Assembly: GCF_003601975.1 (NCBI RefSeq) | Contig: NZ_QZWZ01000014.1 | Location: 1 to 64,000 of the forward strand | Reading direction: 5' to 3' | DNA length: 64,000 bases | DNA from: Mesorhizobium waimense | GTDB lineage: Bacteria; Pseudomonadota; Alphaproteobacteria; Rhizobiales; Rhizobiaceae | Shown: piece by piece, positions 31,984-39,588 of the stretch | Layout of the letters: the number at the start of each line of letters is the position of its first letter | Numbering within the stretch: the stretch's first letter is position 1 | Position numbers and translations under genes: made by a program | Notes under the pieces: generated by a model | Seen by the model: only the letters and a program-made list of their open reading frames with translations | Database searches by the model: none | What the model was told of the DNA's origin: nothing

Positions 31984-32421
31984 TTAACCCAAGGTGAGTT
32001 TTGCCTCCAGCGCTGCCACCCCGCTGACGATCGCCGCCTGTTCCTCCGCACCTAGCCTCGCCAGCAACTCCCTCTCAAACGCCTTCGCCAGCGGCACCAT
32101 CTCGCGATAGGCGGCCAGCCCCGCTTTGGTCAGCGTCAGATGTTCGATACGGCGGTCGTTCTCATCAGGCGTGCGCGTCAGCCAGCGCCGCCGCTCGAGT
32201 TCGGCGACGGCGCGCGAAACCTTGGTCTTGTGCATCGCCGACTGTTCGCCAAGCGCCGTCGCGGTCATCGTGCCGCGCTGCCCGAGCCCGGCCAGCGTGC
32301 GCCATTCAGGTCGGGTCAGACCGTGACGGTGCTTGTAGATCTTCGAGAATTCGTGGCTGACGGCATCGGCAAGCCGGTAGAGCCGGTAGGGCAGGAAGCT
32401 TTCCAATTCGAGGATGTCCAT
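31984..32421 (-). CDS. MarR-family regulator, probably of homogentisate catabolism
   Basis: 145 residues with a MarR winged helix (about 30-105): R-P-E-W-R-T-L-A-G-L, then T-A-L-G-E-Q-S-A-M-H-K-T-K-V-S-R-A-V recognition helix, and the wing R-T-P-D-E-N-D-R-R-I-E. It diverges from hmgA across 148 bases that contain repeated GTTACA motifs over a plausible hmgA promoter. Regulators of this family (for example HpaR- and HmgR-like proteins) respond to aromatic acids, so homogentisate is a likely effector, by inference only. Confidence 0.88.
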   Translation of the reverse strand: MDILELESFLPYRLYRLADAVSHEFSKIYKHRHGLTRPEWRTLAGLGQRGTMTATALGEQSAMHKTKVSRAVAELERRRWLTRTPDENDRRIEHLTLTKAGLAAYREMVPLAKAFERELLARLGAEEQAAIVSGVAALEAKLTLG

Positions 32422-32482: not shown

Positions 32483-32569
32483 TGAAACCAATTTGGTCAA
32501 CCCGCGGACCGCCAGACGCCATCGCTGGGCGGAAATGGCAATCCGGGGATCATGCTTGAGGAGGAAGCG

Positions 32570-33883
32570 ATGGCCTTTTCCTATATGCCGGGCTTCGGCA
32601 ATGATTTTGAAACCGAAACCTTGCCGGGCTCGCTGCCGCAGGGGCGCAATTCCCCGCAGCGGCCGGCTTACGGCCTCTATGCGGAGCAGCTGTCGGGCTC
32701 GCCCTTCACGGCGCCGCGCGGCACCAACGAGCGCTCCTGGCTCTACCGCATCCGGCCAAGCGTCAGGCACACCGGGCGCTTCAAACCGGCAAGCTATCCG
32801 CTGTGGAAGACCGCGCCCAATGTCGGCGACCACGAACTGGCGCTTGGCCAGTATCGCTGGAATCCGGTGCCAATGCCGAAGGAGCCGACCGATTTCATTC
32901 AAGGCATACGCAGCATGACCACGGCCGGCGACGTGCTGGGACAGACCGGCATCGCGGCGCATGTATATGTCGCCAACACATCGATGGTCGATGACCATTT
33001 CTTCAACGCCGACGGCGAGTTGCTGGTCGTGCCGCAGGTGGGGGCGCTGCGCTTCGTCACGGAAATGGGCGTCATCGAGCTCCGGCCGGGCGAGATCGCC
33101 GTTCTGCCGCGCGGTCTGGTGTTCAAGGTCGAACTGGTCGACACGGAAGTGCGCGGCTATGTCTGCGAGAACTACGGCGCCAAGCTGACTATGCCCGACC
33201 GCGGCCCGATCGGCGCCAATTGCCTGGCCAATCCGCGCGATTTCAAGACGCCTTGCGCCTGGTTCGAGGAGAAGGAGACGCCGTGCCGGCTGATCGTCAA
33301 ATGGTGCGGAAATTTCCACATCACCGAAATCGGCCATTCGCCGCTGGATGTGGTGGCGTGGCACGGCAATTACGCGCCTTACAAATATGATCTGGCAACG
33401 TTTTCGCCGGTCGGCGCGATCCTGTTCGATCACCCCGACCCGTCGATCTTCACGGTGCTGACGGCGCCGAGCGGTGAGGAGGGCACCGCCAACATCGACT
33501 TCGTCATCTTCCCGCCGCGCTGGGTGGTGGCGGAAGACACGTTCCGTCCGCCCTGGTACCACCGCAACATCATGAGCGAGTTCATGGGCCTGATCCACGG
33601 CCAGTACGACGCCAAGGAGGAAGGCTTTGTCCCCGGCGGCATCAGCCTGCACAATCTGATGCTGGCCCACGGGCCCGACGCCCCTGGCTTCGAAAAGGCC
33701 TCGCGTACCGAGCTGAAACCGGTCAAGCTCGACGATACCATGGCCTTCATGTTCGAGACCCGATTCCCGCAGATGCTGACCCGCTATGGCGCCGAACTGG
33801 AAACCCGGCAGGACAATTACATCGACTGCTGGGCCGACCTGAAGAAGCGTTTCAACGGCACGCCCGAGGGCGACTGGTCTTGA
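32570..33883 (+). CDS. hmgA: Homogentisate 1,2-dioxygenase
   Basis: 437 residues from the ATG at 32570, chosen because GAGGAGGAA is directly before it (an upstream in-frame ATG at 32552 would place that ribosome site inside the gene). Iron(II) enzyme that opens the homogentisate ring to maleylacetoacetate in tyrosine breakdown. The N-terminus has the family start G-F-G-N-D-F-E-T-E. The metal-binding His/Glu set is expected in the C-terminal part around [14 protein letters not shown] (about residue 325-340) and H-N-L-M-L-A-H-G. The stop TGA overlaps the TTG start of the next gene. Confidence 0.96.
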
Positions 33884-34782
33884 GCGTCGACCGGGTGCGC
33901 GATCGGCTGGTGCTTCTCGGCTCCAAGGGCGGCCCGGCGCTGCGGCCGGGCGGGCCTTGGCCGAGTTCGTCATTGTTGGAACTCGGCGGTCGAACCATCG
34001 TGGTCGACTGCGCGCTCGGCGTGACGCGCGGACTGGTCGATGCCGGCATTAGCCTGAGGGCGCTCGACCTGATCTTCATCACGCATCTCCATTCCGACCA
34101 TGTTCTGGAACTCGGGCCGCTCATCCACACCGCCTGGACAGCCGGTCTGGCGAGCCCGGTCAGCGTCTTCGGACCACCCGGCACCGGCCATTACTGGCGG
34201 CGCTTCTGCCAGGCGATGGAGTTCGACATCGAGATCCGCATCGCTGACGAAGGCCGGCCGGATATCCGCGAGTTGGTTTCGGTCGAGGAGTTCGGCGAAG
34301 GCCTGGTCTTGGAGAAAGGCGGTTTGAGTGTGACGGCGTTGCGCGTCGACCATCCGCCGGTGACCGACTGTTTTGCGTTGCGCTTCGAGCATGGCGGCGG
34401 AAGCGTCGTCTTCTCTGCCGACACGGCGTTCTTTCCGCCGCTGGCCGGTTTCGCCCGGGGCGCCGACATTCTTGTCCACGAGGCGATGCTGGAGCAAGGC
34501 ATTGAGCGACTGGTCGCAAAAACCGGAAACGGCGCGCGGCTGAGGAAACATTTGCTCGCCAGTCATTCGTTTGCCGCCGAAGCAGGGCGCATCGCCACCG
34601 ACGCCGGTGTCAAAAGACTGGTGCTCAACCACCTCATTCCGGCCGACGATCCCGGGATCGGCGAAGCCGATTGGATCGCCGCCGTCAGGAAAACTTGGAC
34701 TGGCGCCTTGACGATTGCCCGCGACGGCCTTGTTGTGGGCTTAAGCTGCGCCGAAGCCGCAGTAGGAGAGGAAACCGCATGA
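33880..34782 (+). CDS. MBL-fold metallohydrolase in the tyrosine operon
   Basis: 300 residues with the metallo-beta-lactamase fold. T-H-L-H-S-D-H near residue 68 is the zinc motif HxHxDH, S-A-D-T-A-F near 180 supplies the bridging Asp, and L-N-H-L-I-P near 250 the last His. It resembles RNase Z-like hydrolases but lacks a clear exosite, so a small-molecule ester or thioester substrate is more likely. The TTG start overlaps the hmgA stop, and its own stop overlaps the next ATG, so it is translationally coupled on both sides. That placement suggests a role in homogentisate breakdown, not yet known. Confidence 0.82.
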
Positions 34783-35792
34783 AGCTTGCCACATTGAAGG
34801 ACGGGACGCGCGACGGGAAACTTGTCGTCGTCTCGCGTGACCTGACGCGCTCTACCGATGCCTCGTTCCTGGTGCGGACGCTGCAGGCCGCGCTCGACGA
34901 CTGGAGCAGGATTTCGCCGCATCTCGCCGCCATGGCGGAATCGCTCGAGAACAATGCGGTGCCGTCGGCGCGCTTCCACGAACATGACGCCCATTCGCCG
35001 CTGCCGCGCGCCTATCAATGGGCCGACGGTTCGGCCTATGTGAACCATGTTGAGCTGGTGCGGAAGGCGCGTGGCGCCGAGATGCCGGCAAGTTTTTGGA
35101 CCAACCCGCTGATCTATCAGGGTGGCTCCGACAGCTTCGTTCCGCCGCGCGATCCGATCCGCATGGCGGATGAGGAATTCGGCATCGACATGGAGGCGGA
35201 GGTCGCCGTCATCGTCGATGATGTGCCGATGGGCGCAGGCCTCGAAGAGGCAAAAGCCGCTATCCGGCTGGTGATGCTGGTCAACGACGTGACGCTGCGT
35301 GTCCTCACAGGGCCGGAGCTTGCCAAGGGTTTTGGTTTCTTCCAGTCGAAACCGTCCTCGGCCTTTTCGCCGGTCGCGGTGACGCCTGACGAATTGGGCG
35401 ATGCCTGGGATGGCGGCAAGGTCAGCCTGCCGCTGCTCGTCGATCTCAACGGCAAGCCGTTCGGCCGGGCGAGCGCCGGCATCGACATGACCTTCGATTT
35501 TCCGGCGCTGATCGTCCATGCCGCCAGGACAAGGCCGCTGGCCGCCGGCACCATCATCGGTTCCGGCACCGTGTCCAACAAACTCGGGGGTGGTCCGGGC
35601 AAGCCCGTTTCGGCAGGTGGCGCCGGCTATTCCTGCATCGCCGAACTGCGCATGATCGAAACCATCGAGACCGGCGAACCCAAAACGCCATTCCTGCGCT
35701 ACGGCGACACGGTGCGCATCGAGATGAAGAACAAGGCGGGAAGTTCGATCTTCGGCGCCATCGAGCAGAAGGTCGAGAAATACGAGGGGTGA
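34779..35792 (+). CDS. Fumarylacetoacetate hydrolase-family enzyme
   Basis: 337 residues from the ATG at 34779 (AGGAGAGG upstream). The FAH-type fold is shown by E-F-G-I-D-M-E-A-E-V-A-V near residue 135, with the metal-binding acidic residues, L-V-N-D-V-T near 165, F-x-Q-S-K-P-S-S-A-F near 190 and G-T-I-I-G-S-G-T-V-S-N near 255. By context it should split fumarylacetoacetate (or maleylacetoacetate directly) into acetoacetate and fumarate or maleate, the last step of tyrosine breakdown. It is shorter than eukaryotic FAH, as usual in bacteria. Its final 42 bases are repeated at 36315-36356. Confidence 0.88.
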   Translation: MKLATLKDGTRDGKLVVVSRDLTRSTDASFLVRTLQAALDDWSRISPHLAAMAESLENNAVPSARFHEHDAHSPLPRAYQWADGSAYVNHVELVRKARGAEMPASFWTNPLIYQGGSDSFVPPRDPIRMADEEFGIDMEAEVAVIVDDVPMGAGLEEAKAAIRLVMLVNDVTLRVLTGPELAKGFGFFQSKPSSAFSPVAVTPDELGDAWDGGKVSLPLLVDLNGKPFGRASAGIDMTFDFPALIVHAARTRPLAAGTIIGSGTVSNKLGGGPGKPVSAGGAGYSCIAELRMIETIETGEPKTPFLRYGDTVRIEMKNKAGSSIFGAIEQKVEKYEG

Positions 35793-35805
35793 CGGGGCAC
35801 GGCGA

Positions 35806-36287
35806 ATGAATGGGTCCCCGAAAGAAACAGCCAAAACCTACGTGGCTACCGCCGCTTTCCTGATCGTTTTTTGTGTGGTGCTGATTCCATTAGGTTTATC
35901 TTTCGCACATGCAGGGGAGCAGACCAGACAGCTCGCTTTTGCTGCCTTCACCGGCCTTTCGGTTGTCTGTTTTGTCGTTCTTGCGCGTAACTTTCACGGA
36001 GAAGGAAGCTGGCGCATGCATTCTTTGTCGTCGCCAGCTTTGTCGCCATGGCCATCATAAGTTGGCTTTGCATTTGGCCAGATTTTGCGGCGGTGAGAAC
36101 CTCCATTCCTGGTTCGCCGGATTCGGAGGTAAATTCCACGCAACTGCCCCCTAGCCGTATACCTGGTAAGGTCATGCTCTACTTGCTCCTGGCTTGCGCG
36201 GCTTTTTGGTATTTGTTGCTTTTTCTGCCGGTCATCATCGCAGGGGTTGCAGAGCGTTATTTGCTACGAAGCGAAACGCTGAAATAG
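35806..36287 (+). pseudogene. Multi-spanning membrane protein gene with one frameshift
   Basis: The first frame (35806 on) encodes two membrane helices (A-F-L-I-V-F-C-V-V-L-I-P-L and F-T-G-L-S-V-V-C-F-V-V-L-A). After about 36005 the sense continues in another frame with L-A-H-A-F-F-V-V-A-S-F-V-A-M-A-I-I-S-W and a last helix near the stop at 36287. Adding one base near 36005 would join them into a protein of about 160 residues with four helices. Family not recognised. It lies between the intact fumarylacetoacetase gene and a copy of that gene's last 42 bases, so it was probably inserted later. GC content looks lower than its neighbours. Confidence 0.55.
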
Positions 36288-36314
36288 CTTGTATCTGAGA
36301 CTGGCCATTCGAAC

Positions 36315-36356
36315 TTTGGCGCCATCGAGCAGAAGGTTGAAAAATACCAAAGGTGA
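36315..36356 (+). repeat. Duplicate of the 3' end of the fumarylacetoacetase gene
   Basis: These 42 bases encode F-G-A-I-E-Q-K-V-E-K-Y-Q-R and a stop, matching the end of the upstream gene (F-G-A-I-E-Q-K-V-E-K-Y-E-G, 35751-35792) at 36 of 42 bases. The two copies bracket the frameshifted membrane-protein gene. The copy has no gene body and directly precedes the ribosome site of the next gene. Confidence 0.8.
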
Positions 36357-36360
36357 GGGA

Positions 36361-36648
36361 ATGACGGGCGAGGCATTCTATCTTCTGTGCGGTTTCTGGG
36401 CGCTTGTGATGCTGGCGATCTTCATCCAGGCGATCCGGCTGAGTTATCGCATCGAGGCGCGCTCGCCTGACCTTGCCAACCGCAGCGGCTTTCCACGCAA
36501 CGCGATGATGTTCCACACCGTCACCAACACGAACGTGGCACGGGACCAGGAAACGCAGGCCATGCGGCGCCGCATGAACCGGCTGCTGCTGACCGTTCTC
36601 GCCGGTTTCGTGCTGATGTGGGCGCTCTTGGTCTGGTCAGGCGGATGA
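36361..36648 (+). CDS. Small two-helix membrane protein
   Basis: 95 residues from the ATG at 36361, with AAGGTGAGGGA just before it. Helices at about 3-23 (F-Y-L-L-C-G-F-W-A-L-V-M-L-A-I-F-I) and 74-92 (L-L-T-V-L-A-G-F-V-L-M-W-A-L-L-V-W) enclose a basic loop of about 50 residues with R-S-P-D-L-A-N-R-S-G-F-P-R. No family recognised. It is co-directional with, and four bases before, the DinB gene, so the two may be co-transcribed, originally perhaps straight after the fumarylacetoacetase gene whose duplicated end lies upstream. Confidence 0.62.
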   Translation: MTGEAFYLLCGFWALVMLAIFIQAIRLSYRIEARSPDLANRSGFPRNAMMFHTVTNTNVARDQETQAMRRRMNRLLLTVLAGFVLMWALLVWSGG

Positions 36649-36652
36649 ATTC

Positions 36653-37213
36653 GTGACCCTGCTCGATCACCTCCGCCGCATGGCCGGCAACAATCTCTGG
36701 TCGAACGACCGGCTATACCGTGCCGTGCTGCAGCTCAAGCCTGGCGAGTTCGAAGCCGAACGCACCAGCTTCTTCCCGTCGATCAAGGCGACGCTCAACC
36801 ACATCCTCGCGGTCGATCATCTCTATCTCGATTTCCTGGAGGAGGGCGGCGTCGGGGCTGCTGCCCACGACGACTACGTGCCGTTTGACGAACCACAGGT
36901 GTTGTTCGCCGCCCAGACCGTATTCGACCGGCGTCTCATCGCCTTCTGTGGCAGGCTGTCGGAGAGCGATCTCGACCGCCACGTCATCACCGACCGGCGC
37001 GAGGACGGCATGATCCCGGAGCGCATCGGCGATATCCTCGCCCATGTCTTCCTTCACGACATCCACCATCGCGGCCAGGTGCATGCCATGCTGTCCGGCA
37101 CCTCGATCGCGCCGCCGCAGCTCGACGAGTTCCTGCTCGATTATGATCTGAAGCTCAGGAAAGCGGAGGTCGAGCGGCTGGGGCTGGATGATCAGACCAA
37201 CGCTACGTCATAG
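36653..37213 (+). CDS. DinB-family metal-binding hydrolase-like protein
   Basis: 186 residues from a GTG at 36653. The DinB/YfiT four-helix bundle is shown by N-L-W-S-N-D-R-L near residue 15, T-L-N-H-I-L-A-V-D-H-L-Y near 46-57 (first His) and H-V-F-L-H-D-I-H-H-R-G-Q-V-H near 130 (further His), the usual three-His nickel or zinc site. Members are thiol S-transferases or unknown; bacillithiol is absent in proteobacteria, and a glutathione-linked role such as maleylacetoacetate isomerisation is possible because DinB-fold maleylpyruvate isomerases exist. The 3' end overlaps the VapC-type gene by 22 bases. Confidence 0.85.
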   Translation: MTLLDHLRRMAGNNLWSNDRLYRAVLQLKPGEFEAERTSFFPSIKATLNHILAVDHLYLDFLEEGGVGAAAHDDYVPFDEPQVLFAAQTVFDRRLIAFCGRLSESDLDRHVITDRREDGMIPERIGDILAHVFLHDIHHRGQVHAMLSGTSIAPPQLDEFLLDYDLKLRKAEVERLGLDDQTNATS

Positions 37214-37566
37214 GCTGAAAAATGCCGATCCGCGGTGACCAACGTGAGGCCTTCAATTTGAGCCTGTGCAATGAGCAGGCGGCCGAAGGGATCGCGGTGG
37301 TGAAGCGGCAGATGCTCAAGTCTCGCCGCGTGTAGTTCGTTTACGCCGAGGATCGGAATCCCGTTCGATCGCAGAATGCCCACGATGTCGCCTGTGAGCG
37401 TGACTTTGCCGAGCGATTTCTTGATGGCGATCTCCGCTACCGAGATGGCGCTGACGATCACATCCTTGCCTGCGAGAAAGATGTCGCGATGGTGATCTGA
37501 AAGACGTGAATCGGCGTTGAGTACCCAAAGCAGAATATGCGTATCGACCAGATATTTGCGGCTCAT
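37192..37566 (-). CDS. PIN-domain toxin, VapC-type
   Basis: 124 residues with the four PIN acids: Asp8 in L-V-D-T-H-I-L-L-W, Glu near 45 in S-V-A-E-I-A-I-K, Asp near 93 in R-D-P-F-G-R-L-L and Asp near 112 in T-A-D-R-H-F. PIN toxins cut RNA, often initiator tRNA or rRNA, when the antitoxin is lost. It overlaps the antitoxin gene by four bases (ATGA type). Its end overlaps the convergent dinB-like gene, so it may have entered this place as a cassette. Genes of this subgroup are paired with Phd/YefM antitoxins, as here. Confidence 0.9.
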   Translation of the reverse strand: MSRKYLVDTHILLWVLNADSRLSDHHRDIFLAGKDVIVSAISVAEIAIKKSLGKVTLTGDIVGILRSNGIPILGVNELHAARLEHLPLHHRDPFGRLLIAQAQIEGLTLVTADRHFSAYDVALV

Positions 37567-37853: not shown

Positions 37854-38969
37854 TTACGCCGCCTTGCCATCCACCTTGATCACGCCGCGCTTGATCTGGT
37901 CCTGCTCGATCGATTCGAACAAAGCGCGGAAATTGCCTTCGCCAAAACCTTCGTCGCCCTTCCTCTGGATGAACTCAAAGAAGATCGGGCCGATCACGGT
38001 TTTCGAAAAGATCTGCAGTAGGATCTTGGTCATGCCTCCGTCGACCACGCCTTCGCCGTCGATCAGGATGCCGTGCTTCTTCATCCGCTCGATCGGCTCG
38101 TCATGGCCGTTCACCCTGTCATAGGACATGTCGTAATAGGTTTCCGGCGGGCCAGGCATGAATTTCAGCCCGTTGGCCGCCAACTTGTCGGTGGCGCCGT
38201 AGATCTCGTCGGTGCCGACCGCAATGTGCTGGATGCCTTCGCCATTGTACTTCTTCAGATACTCGGCGATCTGGCTGGTCTCGTCCTTGGACTCGTTGAG
38301 CGGGATGCGGATCTTGCCACAGGGCGAGGTAATCGCCCGGCTGACCAGCCCGGTGATCTTGCCGTCAATATCGAAGAAATGGATCTGCTTGAAACCGAAC
38401 AGCTCGCGGTAGAAATCCCACCATTTGTCCATCTGGCCGCGATAGACATTGTGGGTAAGGTGGTCGAGATAATAGAAGCCGACGCCTTGCGGCCGCGGGT
38501 CGCGGGCGCCCAACCATTCGAACTCGGCGTCATAGGCCGAGCCCTTCTCGCCATAGCTGTCGATGAAATAGAGCAGCGAGCCGCCGATGCCGACGATGGC
38601 CGGCACGTCCAGCGCCTTGTCATTGCCTTCGTAGGGCGTGGCGCCCTTGGCCACGGCATGGTCGAAAGCGTGCTTGGCATCGACCACCCGCCACGCCATC
38701 GAGGCCGCGCAGGGGCCGTGCTTGTCGACGAATTTCATCGCATGCGAACCGGGCTCGGCGTTGACGATGTAGTTGATGTCGCCCTGGCGCCAGACTGTGA
38801 TGTTTTTCGAGCTGTGTTTTGCAACCGCGACATAGCCCATGCGGGTGAAAAGCTCGGCGAGCTTTTCCGGCTCCGGATGCGCGAATTCAACGAACTCGAA
38901 GCCGTCGGTGCCGGCGGGATTGGTCTTGCTGATCTTGGCCGGCGGTGCGTCGTGCGGGAAGGGGCCCAT
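37854..38969 (-). CDS. hppD: 4-hydroxyphenylpyruvate dioxygenase
   Basis: 371 residues from the ATG at 38969; the open frame further upstream has no family sequence. Non-haem iron enzyme of the VOC superfamily that makes homogentisate from 4-hydroxyphenylpyruvate. Iron ligands are seen as His in L-D-H-L-T-H-N-V (near 175), His in G-I-Q-H-I-A-V-G-T-D (near 260) and Glu in I-F-F-E-F-I-Q-R-K-G (near 340). It supplies the substrate of HmgA, encoded 5 kb to the left on the other strand. It faces an Lrp/AsnC regulator across 151 bases with repeats. Confidence 0.96.
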   Translation of the reverse strand: MGPFPHDAPPAKISKTNPAGTDGFEFVEFAHPEPEKLAELFTRMGYVAVAKHSSKNITVWRQGDINYIVNAEPGSHAMKFVDKHGPCAASMAWRVVDAKHAFDHAVAKGATPYEGNDKALDVPAIVGIGGSLLYFIDSYGEKGSAYDAEFEWLGARDPRPQGVGFYYLDHLTHNVYRGQMDKWWDFYRELFGFKQIHFFDIDGKITGLVSRAITSPCGKIRIPLNESKDETSQIAEYLKKYNGEGIQHIAVGTDEIYGATDKLAANGLKFMPGPPETYYDMSYDRVNGHDEPIERMKKHGILIDGEGVVDGGMTKILLQIFSKTVIGPIFFEFIQRKGDEGFGEGNFRALFESIEQDQIKRGVIKVDGKAA

Positions 38970-38980
38970 GGCAGTTCTCC

Positions 38981-39006
38981 GAAATTTGATCTGGAAATTT
39001 GATCTG
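38981..39006. repeat. Exact 13-base tandem repeat upstream of hppD
   Basis: GAAATTTGATCTG occurs twice without spacing (38981-38993 and 38994-39006), 12 bases before the hppD start. It could be a pair of regulator sites; Lrp/AsnC proteins often bind repeated AT-rich motifs, and such a gene diverges from hppD here. Confidence 0.6.
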
Positions 39007-39059
39007 GCCGCTCTTGGCCATCCTTGCCCATTATAGCGCCAACCAACCGCACAGAGCTT

Positions 39060-39080
39060 GCATTCAAACGCTTGAAATGC
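39060..39080. promoter_or_regulatory. Palindrome near the Lrp-type gene, candidate Lrp operator
   Basis: TTCAAACGCTTGAA (39063-39076) is symmetric except at one pair, and GCA/TGC flank it nearly symmetrically. It lies about 40 bases before the Lrp start and 90 before hppD, so it may serve both genes. Confidence 0.5.
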
Positions 39081-39120
39081 TGATCTGATGCGTAAAACGT
39101 GCACAAGGAGGAGAACGTCC

Positions 39121-39588
39121 GTGGATAATGTGCGCATTGATCAATTTGACCGCAAGATACTGGCGCTGTTGCAAGCCGACGCGCGGCTCACCAACGCTGA
39201 TTTGTCGGACCGGGTGAACCTGTCGCCGTCGCAATGCTCGCGTCGCCGCCAGCGGCTGGAGGAGGACGGGTTCATCAGGGGCTACCGCGCTGTGCTCGAT
39301 CGCGACAGGCTCGGCTTTTCGCTGGTCAACGTCATCTCGGTGACCTTGGCCACCCACAACCGCGACAATGCCAGGCGCTTCGGCGAACTGCTGGCGCGGC
39401 TGCCGGAAGTGCAGGAGGCGCACGCGCTGACCGGCGAGATGGACTACATCTTGAAAGTCGTGACGCCGGACCTGAAATCGCTGTCGGAATTCGTCAACGA
39501 CGTGCTGCTGCCGCACGAATCCGTGCAGCATGTGAAGACGGCGATCGTGCTCGAAACGCTGAAGGAAACCGGCGCGCTGCCGATTTAA
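39121..39588 (+). CDS. Lrp/AsnC-family transcriptional regulator of hppD
   Basis: 155 residues from a GTG at 39121, chosen because AAGGAGGAG (39105-39113) is seven bases upstream; the ATG at 39088 would put that site inside the gene. The N-terminal HTH (about 4-60: I-D-Q-F-D-R-K-I-L-A-L-L-Q-A-D-A-R, then L-S-P-S-Q-C-S-R-R) precedes a RAM/AsnC effector domain (about 65-150: A-L-T-G-E-M-D-Y-I-L-K-V). Members of this subgroup often sit beside hppD or phenylalanine genes and sense aromatic amino acids. It overlaps by four bases the convergent DUF442 gene. Confidence 0.9.
   Translation: MDNVRIDQFDRKILALLQADARLTNADLSDRVNLSPSQCSRRRQRLEEDGFIRGYRAVLDRDRLGFSLVNVISVTLATHNRDNARRFGELLARLPEVQEAHALTGEMDYILKVVTPDLKSLSEFVNDVLLPHESVQHVKTAIVLETLKETGALPI

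Follow-up and report, generated by a model that had tools for sequence, protein, structure and literature searches.

A metallo-β-lactamase-fold gene conserved between hmgA and fahA in Mesorhizobium is a poor candidate for a replacement of maleylacetoacetate isomerase

What does a metallo-β-lactamase (MBL)-fold protein do in an operon for homogentisate breakdown? In a 64,000-nucleotide stretch of Mesorhizobium waimense DNA (contig NZ_QZWZ01000014.1, hereafter the window), the MBL gene lies between hmgA, encoding homogentisate 1,2-dioxygenase, and fahA, encoding fumarylacetoacetase, and no gene for maleylacetoacetate isomerase (maiA) is visible. An earlier note, made from the sequence alone, had proposed that the MBL enzyme may bypass isomerisation and had named the product of a downstream DinB-fold gene as a second isomerase candidate. 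The window lies on contig 55 (C55) of an assembly of 290 contigs that totals 8.15 Mb; strains of Mesorhizobium amorphae are its closest named relatives, by the related loci as well as in the hmgA tree. We find that the MBL gene is a real, conserved member of the operon; that it acts in place of the isomerase is contradicted, to the extent that genome evidence allows.

The translational coupling described in the note is present in the open reading frames (ORFs). The hmgA stop codon TGA (33881-33883) and the MBL start codon TTG (33880-33882) form the 4-base overlap TTGA, and the MBL stop codon TGA (34780-34782) and the fahA ATG (34779-34781) form the 4-base overlap ATGA. By eye, Shine-Dalgarno-like sequences precede both starts (GAGG 5′ of the TTG, GGAGAGG 5′ of the ATG). 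Related loci were gathered by the MBL protein, as the best 80 of 213 relatives, and are nearly all from Mesorhizobium. The order hmgA-MBL-fahA, whose conservation the note had proposed to check, is kept in 79 of these 80 loci, a count that measures conservation within the genus and not frequency among hmgA clusters. All 79 loci with hmgA and MBL keep fahA; the hmgA stop overlaps an in-frame MBL start in 61 of them, and the 4-base MBL/fahA overlap is found in 41. The gene is under purifying selection: its median ratio of nonsynonymous to synonymous substitution rates (dN/dS) against the window is 0.137 (80 pairs), compared with 0.072 for hmgA (79 pairs), 0.090 for fahA (80 pairs) and 0.135 for the DinB gene. 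No second relative of the MBL protein was found in the window genome at E ≤ 1e-20. Single Mesorhizobium strains carry unrelated genes in the intervals: an HNH-like gene, whose match falls slightly short of the Pfam cut-off, separates hmgA from MBL (L039:5390-5998), and a Methyltransf_17 gene separates MBL from fahA (L081:6965-7465).

A whole-genome search with the maiA model returned 17 matches, none of them on C55, and the absence of maiA from the window thus stands. It does not extend to the genome. A gene on contig C166 scores 279.1 bits with TIGR01262 (cut-off 171.05; next match in the genome, 62.9) and is a zeta-class glutathione S-transferase (GST) of the maiA type. The note had held that a functional maiA elsewhere, joined with normal growth on tyrosine after loss of the MBL gene, would refute its proposal; of these two, a maiA elsewhere is predicted here from sequence. 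The C166 maiA is paired with a small FAA-hydrolase gene that is closest to the putative fumarylpyruvate hydrolase 4maq. Its own best match in the PDB is the maleylpyruvate isomerase 2v6k, which does not discriminate the substrate, because the maiA that lies with hmgA in Sinorhizobium sp. A49 has the same best match. The gentisate pathway was considered as a possible owner of the C166 maiA, and no match to gentisate dioxygenase (TIGR02272) was found in the window genome. In a tree of 22 MaiA proteins, rooted at the midpoint like all trees here, the Mesorhizobium gene sides with the hmgA-clustered maiA of families f18, f27, f36 and f50, and the cluster maiA of G023, a genome of the same family as the window, falls on the opposite side. 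The C166 candidate probably serves the homogentisate pathway. Across the genus, maiA exceeds the cut-off in all nine genomes searched and lies beside hmgA in none. For wider comparisons, order, class and phylum samples of 150, 337 and 349 genomes were used, which were drawn evenly from larger groups and overlap; in the maiA search of the order sample, up to 18 first-look candidates were scored per genome. The fumarylpyruvate-hydrolase-like gene on C166 (L009:7753-8523) is frameshifted, with its last ~29 codons in another frame; G069, G105 and G136 carry intact relatives of it, and the frameshift reflects either decay or a sequencing error.

The proposal that the MBL enzyme replaces or bypasses the isomerase, for example by hydrolysing maleylacetoacetate to maleate and acetoacetate, can be examined against these distributions. 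Among the genomes searched within the family of the window (f1), maiA and MBL are mutually exclusive in the homogentisate clusters: five hold maiA only, seven, all from Mesorhizobium, hold MBL only, and two hold neither. Taken alone, this pattern would suggest replacement of maiA by MBL, and the remote maiA, which lies beside a fumarylpyruvate-hydrolase-like gene, may not act in this pathway. However, both genes occur together in one cluster in four lineages. Sinorhizobium sp. A49 (L088) has hmgA-MBL-fahA-maiA; G084 (L153) has maiA, MarR, hmgA, MBL and a long-type fahA; G171 (L164) has hmgA, MBL, a long fahA and maiA within 8 kb; and Gemmobacter fulvus has an MBL gene of the window family (52.5% identity) clustered with hppD, fahA, hmgA and maiA. 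Moreover, the two f1 clusters with neither gene belong to Mesorhizobium genomes (G642 and G645) that read hmgA-DUF1428-fahA-DinB. Each has one remote maiA, and a search for MBL at E ≤ 1e-50 gave no match. In the hmgA tree their sequences sit within the MBL-bearing Mesorhizobium, and this lineage has thus lost MBL while keeping hmgA and fahA and gaining no second maiA. On this coexistence and loss, with fahA retained in all loci that hold hmgA and MBL and with maiA present throughout the genus genomes searched, we rejected the MBL protein as an isomerase substitute, a role that now appears very improbable. The DUF1428 gene occupies the place of MBL between hmgA and fahA at L198:4662-5015 and L199:6590-6943 (Pfam was run on the L199 copy).

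The lack of maiA near hmgA is itself a common situation. In the order sample, 10 of 43 hmgA-positive genomes have no maiA at E ≤ 1e-45, and three of seven plasmid hmgA neighbourhoods have no annotated maiA within 5-6 kb. A cluster without maiA is therefore weak evidence for a new enzyme. The ten genomes are G013, G019, G040, G051, G061 and G080 (L183-L188), G101, G115, G120 and G132.

The position of the MBL gene nevertheless has to be accounted for, and its history in other genomes points to a functional link with the pathway. Relatives of the MBL protein (E ≤ 1e-50; 1e-60 in the class sample) were found in 24 distinct genomes, with some searches scoring only part of the first-look candidates and with neighbour genes in part of the genomes called by a simple ORF picker. 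They lie beside hmgA in nine genomes (seven Mesorhizobium, G084 and G171). In one further genome, G089, MBL is adjacent to fahA only, and an hmgA fragment stands at a contig end with maiA; the assemblies of G089 and G032 are fragmented, that of G032, which counts among the genomes with the gene elsewhere, too much so to judge. In the MBL tree (34 rows), the proteins of Mesorhizobium, Sinorhizobium A49 and Aminobacter stand apart from their G084 and G171 counterparts, whose neighbours in the tree are proteins without hmgA linkage, and by the starred branches the hmgA-linkage label must have changed two or more times. The hmgA tree (41 rows) forces at least three label changes, one of which fits the loss in G642 and G645. 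In G084 and G171, the order hmgA-MBL-fahA is built with a different, long-type fahA. The MBL gene has thus joined homogentisate operons at least two times independently. That the gene entered this one interval repeatedly is the strongest argument for linking it functionally to homogentisate, and together with the conserved coupling it bears out the tie to homogentisate breakdown that the note had drawn.

The protein itself belongs to the MBL superfamily, with a Lactamase_B_2 (PF12706) match over cut-off (Table 1) and the ligand set H69, H71, D73, H74, H158, D181 and H251 (HxHxDH, His, Asp, His). The metal site is intact: in 39 aligned sequences, including relatives down to 26% identity, H69, H71, D73, H74, H158 and H251 are invariant and D181 is present in at least 90%. 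The AlphaFold (AF2) model has a predicted local distance difference test (pLDDT) score of 93.4. Its closest fold is 8gyg, the MBL-fold 'arylsulfatase' of Pseudoalteromonas atlantica T6c (Z 36.7, root-mean-square deviation 2.4 over 287 aligned residues, 26% identity), which is also the best PDB match by sequence (82.9 bits). The kinship is thus supported by both fold and sequence, and the two proteins share an N-terminal LG-T/S-x-GGP stretch. However, they are only ~26% identical, and the activity of 8gyg rests on the title given by its depositors; we know of no homogentisate context for it. RNase Z (tRNase Z, ELAC) shares the fold and the metal-binding motifs (Z 33.8 to 4gcw), but only 253 residues of its 307-residue chain are aligned and the window protein scores below the curated equivalog cut-offs (101.9 versus 292.95 with TIGR02651; 142.5 versus 363 with NF000806). 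Assignments as guanitoxin GntH (NF041257, 97.4 versus cut-off 333) and as anti-Pycsar Apyc1 (PF23023, 22.9 versus gathering cut-off 50) were likewise rejected. The metagenomic MBL PNGM-1 is a further structural relative (Z ~33, 60.2 bits, 25-26% identity), and nothing in the analysis suggests a β-lactamase role for the window protein. Because 8gyg comes ahead of RNase Z and PNGM-1, the ligands are conserved, and the RNase Z, GntH and Apyc1 scores fall short, an ester, lactone or sulfate hydrolase would be the natural guess, although the step from fold to substrate is inferred.

At about an even chance of being right, we favour the reading that the MBL protein is an accessory, metal-dependent small-molecule hydrolase that cleaves esters or lactones and is neither the maleylacetoacetate isomerase nor its replacement. 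It would be produced along with HmgA and FahA, with whose reading frames its own overlaps, and would most likely act on an ester or lactone that arises on the side from homogentisate or from the product of ring fission; homogentisate lactone and a cyclised cis-enone acid are examples. This reading is close to the suggestion of the note that the enzyme may remove a thioester or lactone by-product or act in repair. Such cleavage could return carbon to the pathway or remove a reactive dead end. We infer hydrolysis as the chemistry, an ester or lactone as the bond and house-cleaning as the role. Isomerisation would most simply be carried out by the remote zeta-class GST on C166, perhaps helped by nonenzymatic, glutathione-dependent isomerisation. 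A nonenzymatic bypass of this glutathione-dependent kind in mice deficient in maleylacetoacetate isomerase is named in the title of a reference in PMC6669923.

Several points weigh against a hydrolase dedicated to this pathway. Relatives of the MBL gene lie away from hmgA and fahA in 14 of the 24 genomes, and in seven of them hmgA gave no match at 1e-20; its chemistry need not be specific to homogentisate, since relatives so often occur without hmgA. Conversely, the order and class samples hold 80 distinct genomes with hmgA, and MBL is adjacent in only 6. The exclusion of maiA and MBL within f1 described above counts here too. Finally, Aminobacter carboxidus keeps MBL where the pathway genes are lost or eroded. 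At its locus beside tdh, hmgA is gone and an HPP-family gene stands in its place (L087:5386-8181), and fahA is cut to 247 codons by several in-frame internal deletions; MBL and DinB are intact there (79% and 67% identical to those of the window), and a complete hppD, MarR, hmgA-fahA-maiA set is carried on another contig. Because both genes remain intact at this locus, they seem to serve a purpose outside the operon as well. A similar pair, MBL (65%) and DinB (46%) side by side, occurs in G755, in which searches for hmgA (at 1e-20) and for maiA (at 1e-40) gave no match.

These cases raise the alternative that the MBL hydrolase serves house-keeping or detoxification in general and rides the operon only for co-expression, with a substrate unrelated to homogentisate. 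The detached pairs of Aminobacter and G755 would fit such a rider, as would the entry of other genes into the hmgA-fahA interval (HNH-like, methyltransferase, DUF1428) and the surroundings of other relatives: class III aminotransferases, IclR-type regulators and transporters in Phaeobacter, Leisingera, Gemmobacter, Parasedimentitalea and other genomes. These contexts give no common substrate; besides aminotransferases they include an arylsulfotransferase-like gene and a FAD (flavin adenine dinucleotide) monooxygenase that looks pobA-like by eye and is FAD_binding_3 in Pfam. However, the independent recruitments between hmgA and fahA and the tight overlaps argue for a functional link, and in Gemmobacter the aminotransferase-linked MBL copy is itself near hppD and hmgA. 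We hold the rider explanation to be rather unlikely, and less so the case of the accessory hydrolase.

Compared with the canonical hmgA-fahA-maiA operon of Phyllobacterium and Aminobacter plasmids, the window has hmgA, fahA and the MarR, hppD and Lrp neighbours in common, but MBL stands between hmgA and fahA, DinB follows fahA, and maiA is outside the cluster. An MBL-fold gene is also found in the Rhodobacterales operons hmgA-fahA-'MBL fold'-FAD oxidoreductase-DUF2783 (Gemmobacter, Alloyangia, Pseudohalocynthiibacter). That gene, here MBL2, is placed after fahA and belongs to a different MBL family: the two copies scanned (L216, L164) match PF00753 and not PF12706, and the Gemmobacter and Alloyangia copies were assigned by length and position. 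MBL2 adjoins the FAD oxidoreductase and DUF2783 genes at L164:3830-4789, L216:5033-5983 and L227:8696-9646; by eye, the HxHxDH motif of the L164 copy looks degenerate (THYHAVR). Among the matches listed in the open literature searched, we found no published MBL gene in a homogentisate operon and no lactonase link, and passages of PMC5453437 hold nothing on point for such a gene.

The second isomerase candidate of the note, the DinB-fold protein, fared better than the MBL protein. It belongs to the DinB superfamily, with PF05163 and PF12867 matches over cut-off and conserved His columns; H50, H131, H135 and H139 are among the columns invariant in six sequences. The superfamily includes the mycothiol-dependent maleylpyruvate isomerase. 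However, the window protein matches only DinB and DinB_2 in Pfam, with no match to a maleylpyruvate-isomerase model at E ≤ 0.001. A DinB match is found in 79 of the 80 related loci (78 at E ≤ 1e-30), the exception being Sinorhizobium sp. A49, whose cluster holds maiA. In the DinB tree (28 rows; row L237 left out), the homogentisate label must change two or more times, and DinB has thus joined homogentisate operons at least two times.

The DinB protein could then be a glutathione-dependent maleylacetoacetate isomerase that replaced a lost cluster maiA, with MBL as a separate accessory gene. Its position after fahA in 79 loci speaks for this, as does its presence in both MBL-less Mesorhizobium genomes at the place where relatives have maiA. 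A 62-kb Pseudohalocynthiibacter plasmid reads hmgA-fahA-MBL2-DinB-FAD oxidoreductase-DUF2783, with a 4-base overlap between DinB and an adjacent gene; the operon of Alloyangia lacks DinB and reads hmgA-fahA-MBL2-FAD oxidoreductase-DUF2783-maiA. No maiA match at 1e-3 was found on this plasmid; the search covered the plasmid only, and the chromosome could hold a maiA. The two operons also differ beyond maiA and DinB, the fahA of Pseudohalocynthiibacter being of the short type and that of Alloyangia annotated as longer. A passage of PMC5815605 places thiol S-transferases within the S-transferase-like (DinB/YfiT) superfamily. On the other side, the clusters of G041 and G081 hold both DinB and maiA, and Aminobacter carboxidus keeps DinB despite its complete hmgA-fahA-maiA cluster elsewhere. 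Among the ten maiA-less genomes, the six hmgA stretches that were read have no DinB match, and in the other four DinB is on other contigs, ~60 kb off, or absent. Given this double presence and the absence beside hmgA in six of ten, a simple replacement of maiA by DinB is disfavoured. The suggestion of the note has evidence on both sides, the conserved place of the gene after fahA speaking for it and the clusters that contain both genes against it; DinB remains a better candidate than MBL for an alternative isomerase, and we consider such a role unlikely.

A combination of these ideas can be formulated, in which DinB would be a glutathione-dependent stand-in for the zeta-class GST in Mesorhizobium and on the Pseudohalocynthiibacter plasmid, with MBL as its partner acting on off-path esters or lactones, the two genes together forming a helper module for pathways of aromatic ring cleavage. 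The MBL-DinB pairing is kept in Mesorhizobium and in Aminobacter after the loss of hmgA from the locus, and the two genes are neighbours in G755. As a whole, this module seems quite unlikely.

The features of the locus are collected in Table 1. The small protein encoded between fahA and DinB gave no Pfam match over cut-off. An Rfam scan of 28-42 kb gave no RNA element at the gathering threshold. Between 31.9 and 37.3 kb, a scan for sigma-70-type promoters found none (1.1 expected), and eight terminator-like sites were counted against 5.3 ± 2.4 expected. Relative to the closest Mesorhizobium loci, an insertion of ~510 bases lies 3′ of fahA (35796-36307); by eye it contains a broken membrane-like reading frame, and it is followed by a degenerate second copy of the fahA 3′ end (36308-36347, 90% over 40 bases). 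A PIN-domain (VapC-like) gene adjoins the DinB gene on the minus strand (37192-37566), and toxin-antitoxin genes are also found at three plasmid homogentisate loci.

Table 1. Genes of the homogentisate locus in the window, with supporting matches.
Feature	Coordinates	Strand	Evidence and remarks
MarR-family regulator, divergent from hmgA	31984-32421	-	PF12802, PF01047; adjoins hmgA in related loci
hmgA, homogentisate 1,2-dioxygenase	32552-33883	+	TIGR01015 688.8 bits (cut-off 510.75); PF20510, PF04209
MBL-fold hydrolase (predicted), RNase Z-like clade	33880-34782	+	PF12706 66.8 bits (cut-off 27); 300 aa, TTG start
fahA, short-type fumarylacetoacetase (FAA_hydro_N_2 + FAA_hydrolase)	34779-35792	+	PF18288, PF01557
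Small protein, by eye membrane-like, in the fahA-DinB interval	36361-36648	+	Match in 38/80 loci
DinB-fold protein, candidate thiol-dependent transferase or isomerase	36653-37213	+	PF05163 77.2 bits, PF12867 38.4 bits
hppD, 4-hydroxyphenylpyruvate dioxygenase	37854-39137	-	TIGR01263 418.8 bits (cut-off 277)
Lrp/AsnC-family regulator, adjoins hppD	39088-39588	+	PF01037, PF13412

The homogentisate pathway is a textbook one, yet the operon of the window carries two conserved enzymes without an assigned step, which makes it a modest but concrete puzzle. Since 10 of the 43 hmgA genomes do without a detectable maiA at the threshold used, isomerisation without MaiA is a question wider than this window. 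If DinB had the role considered for it, maleylacetoacetate isomerases of a second kind would be known, and the substrate of the MBL protein would reveal a side product of tyrosine breakdown that has been overlooked.

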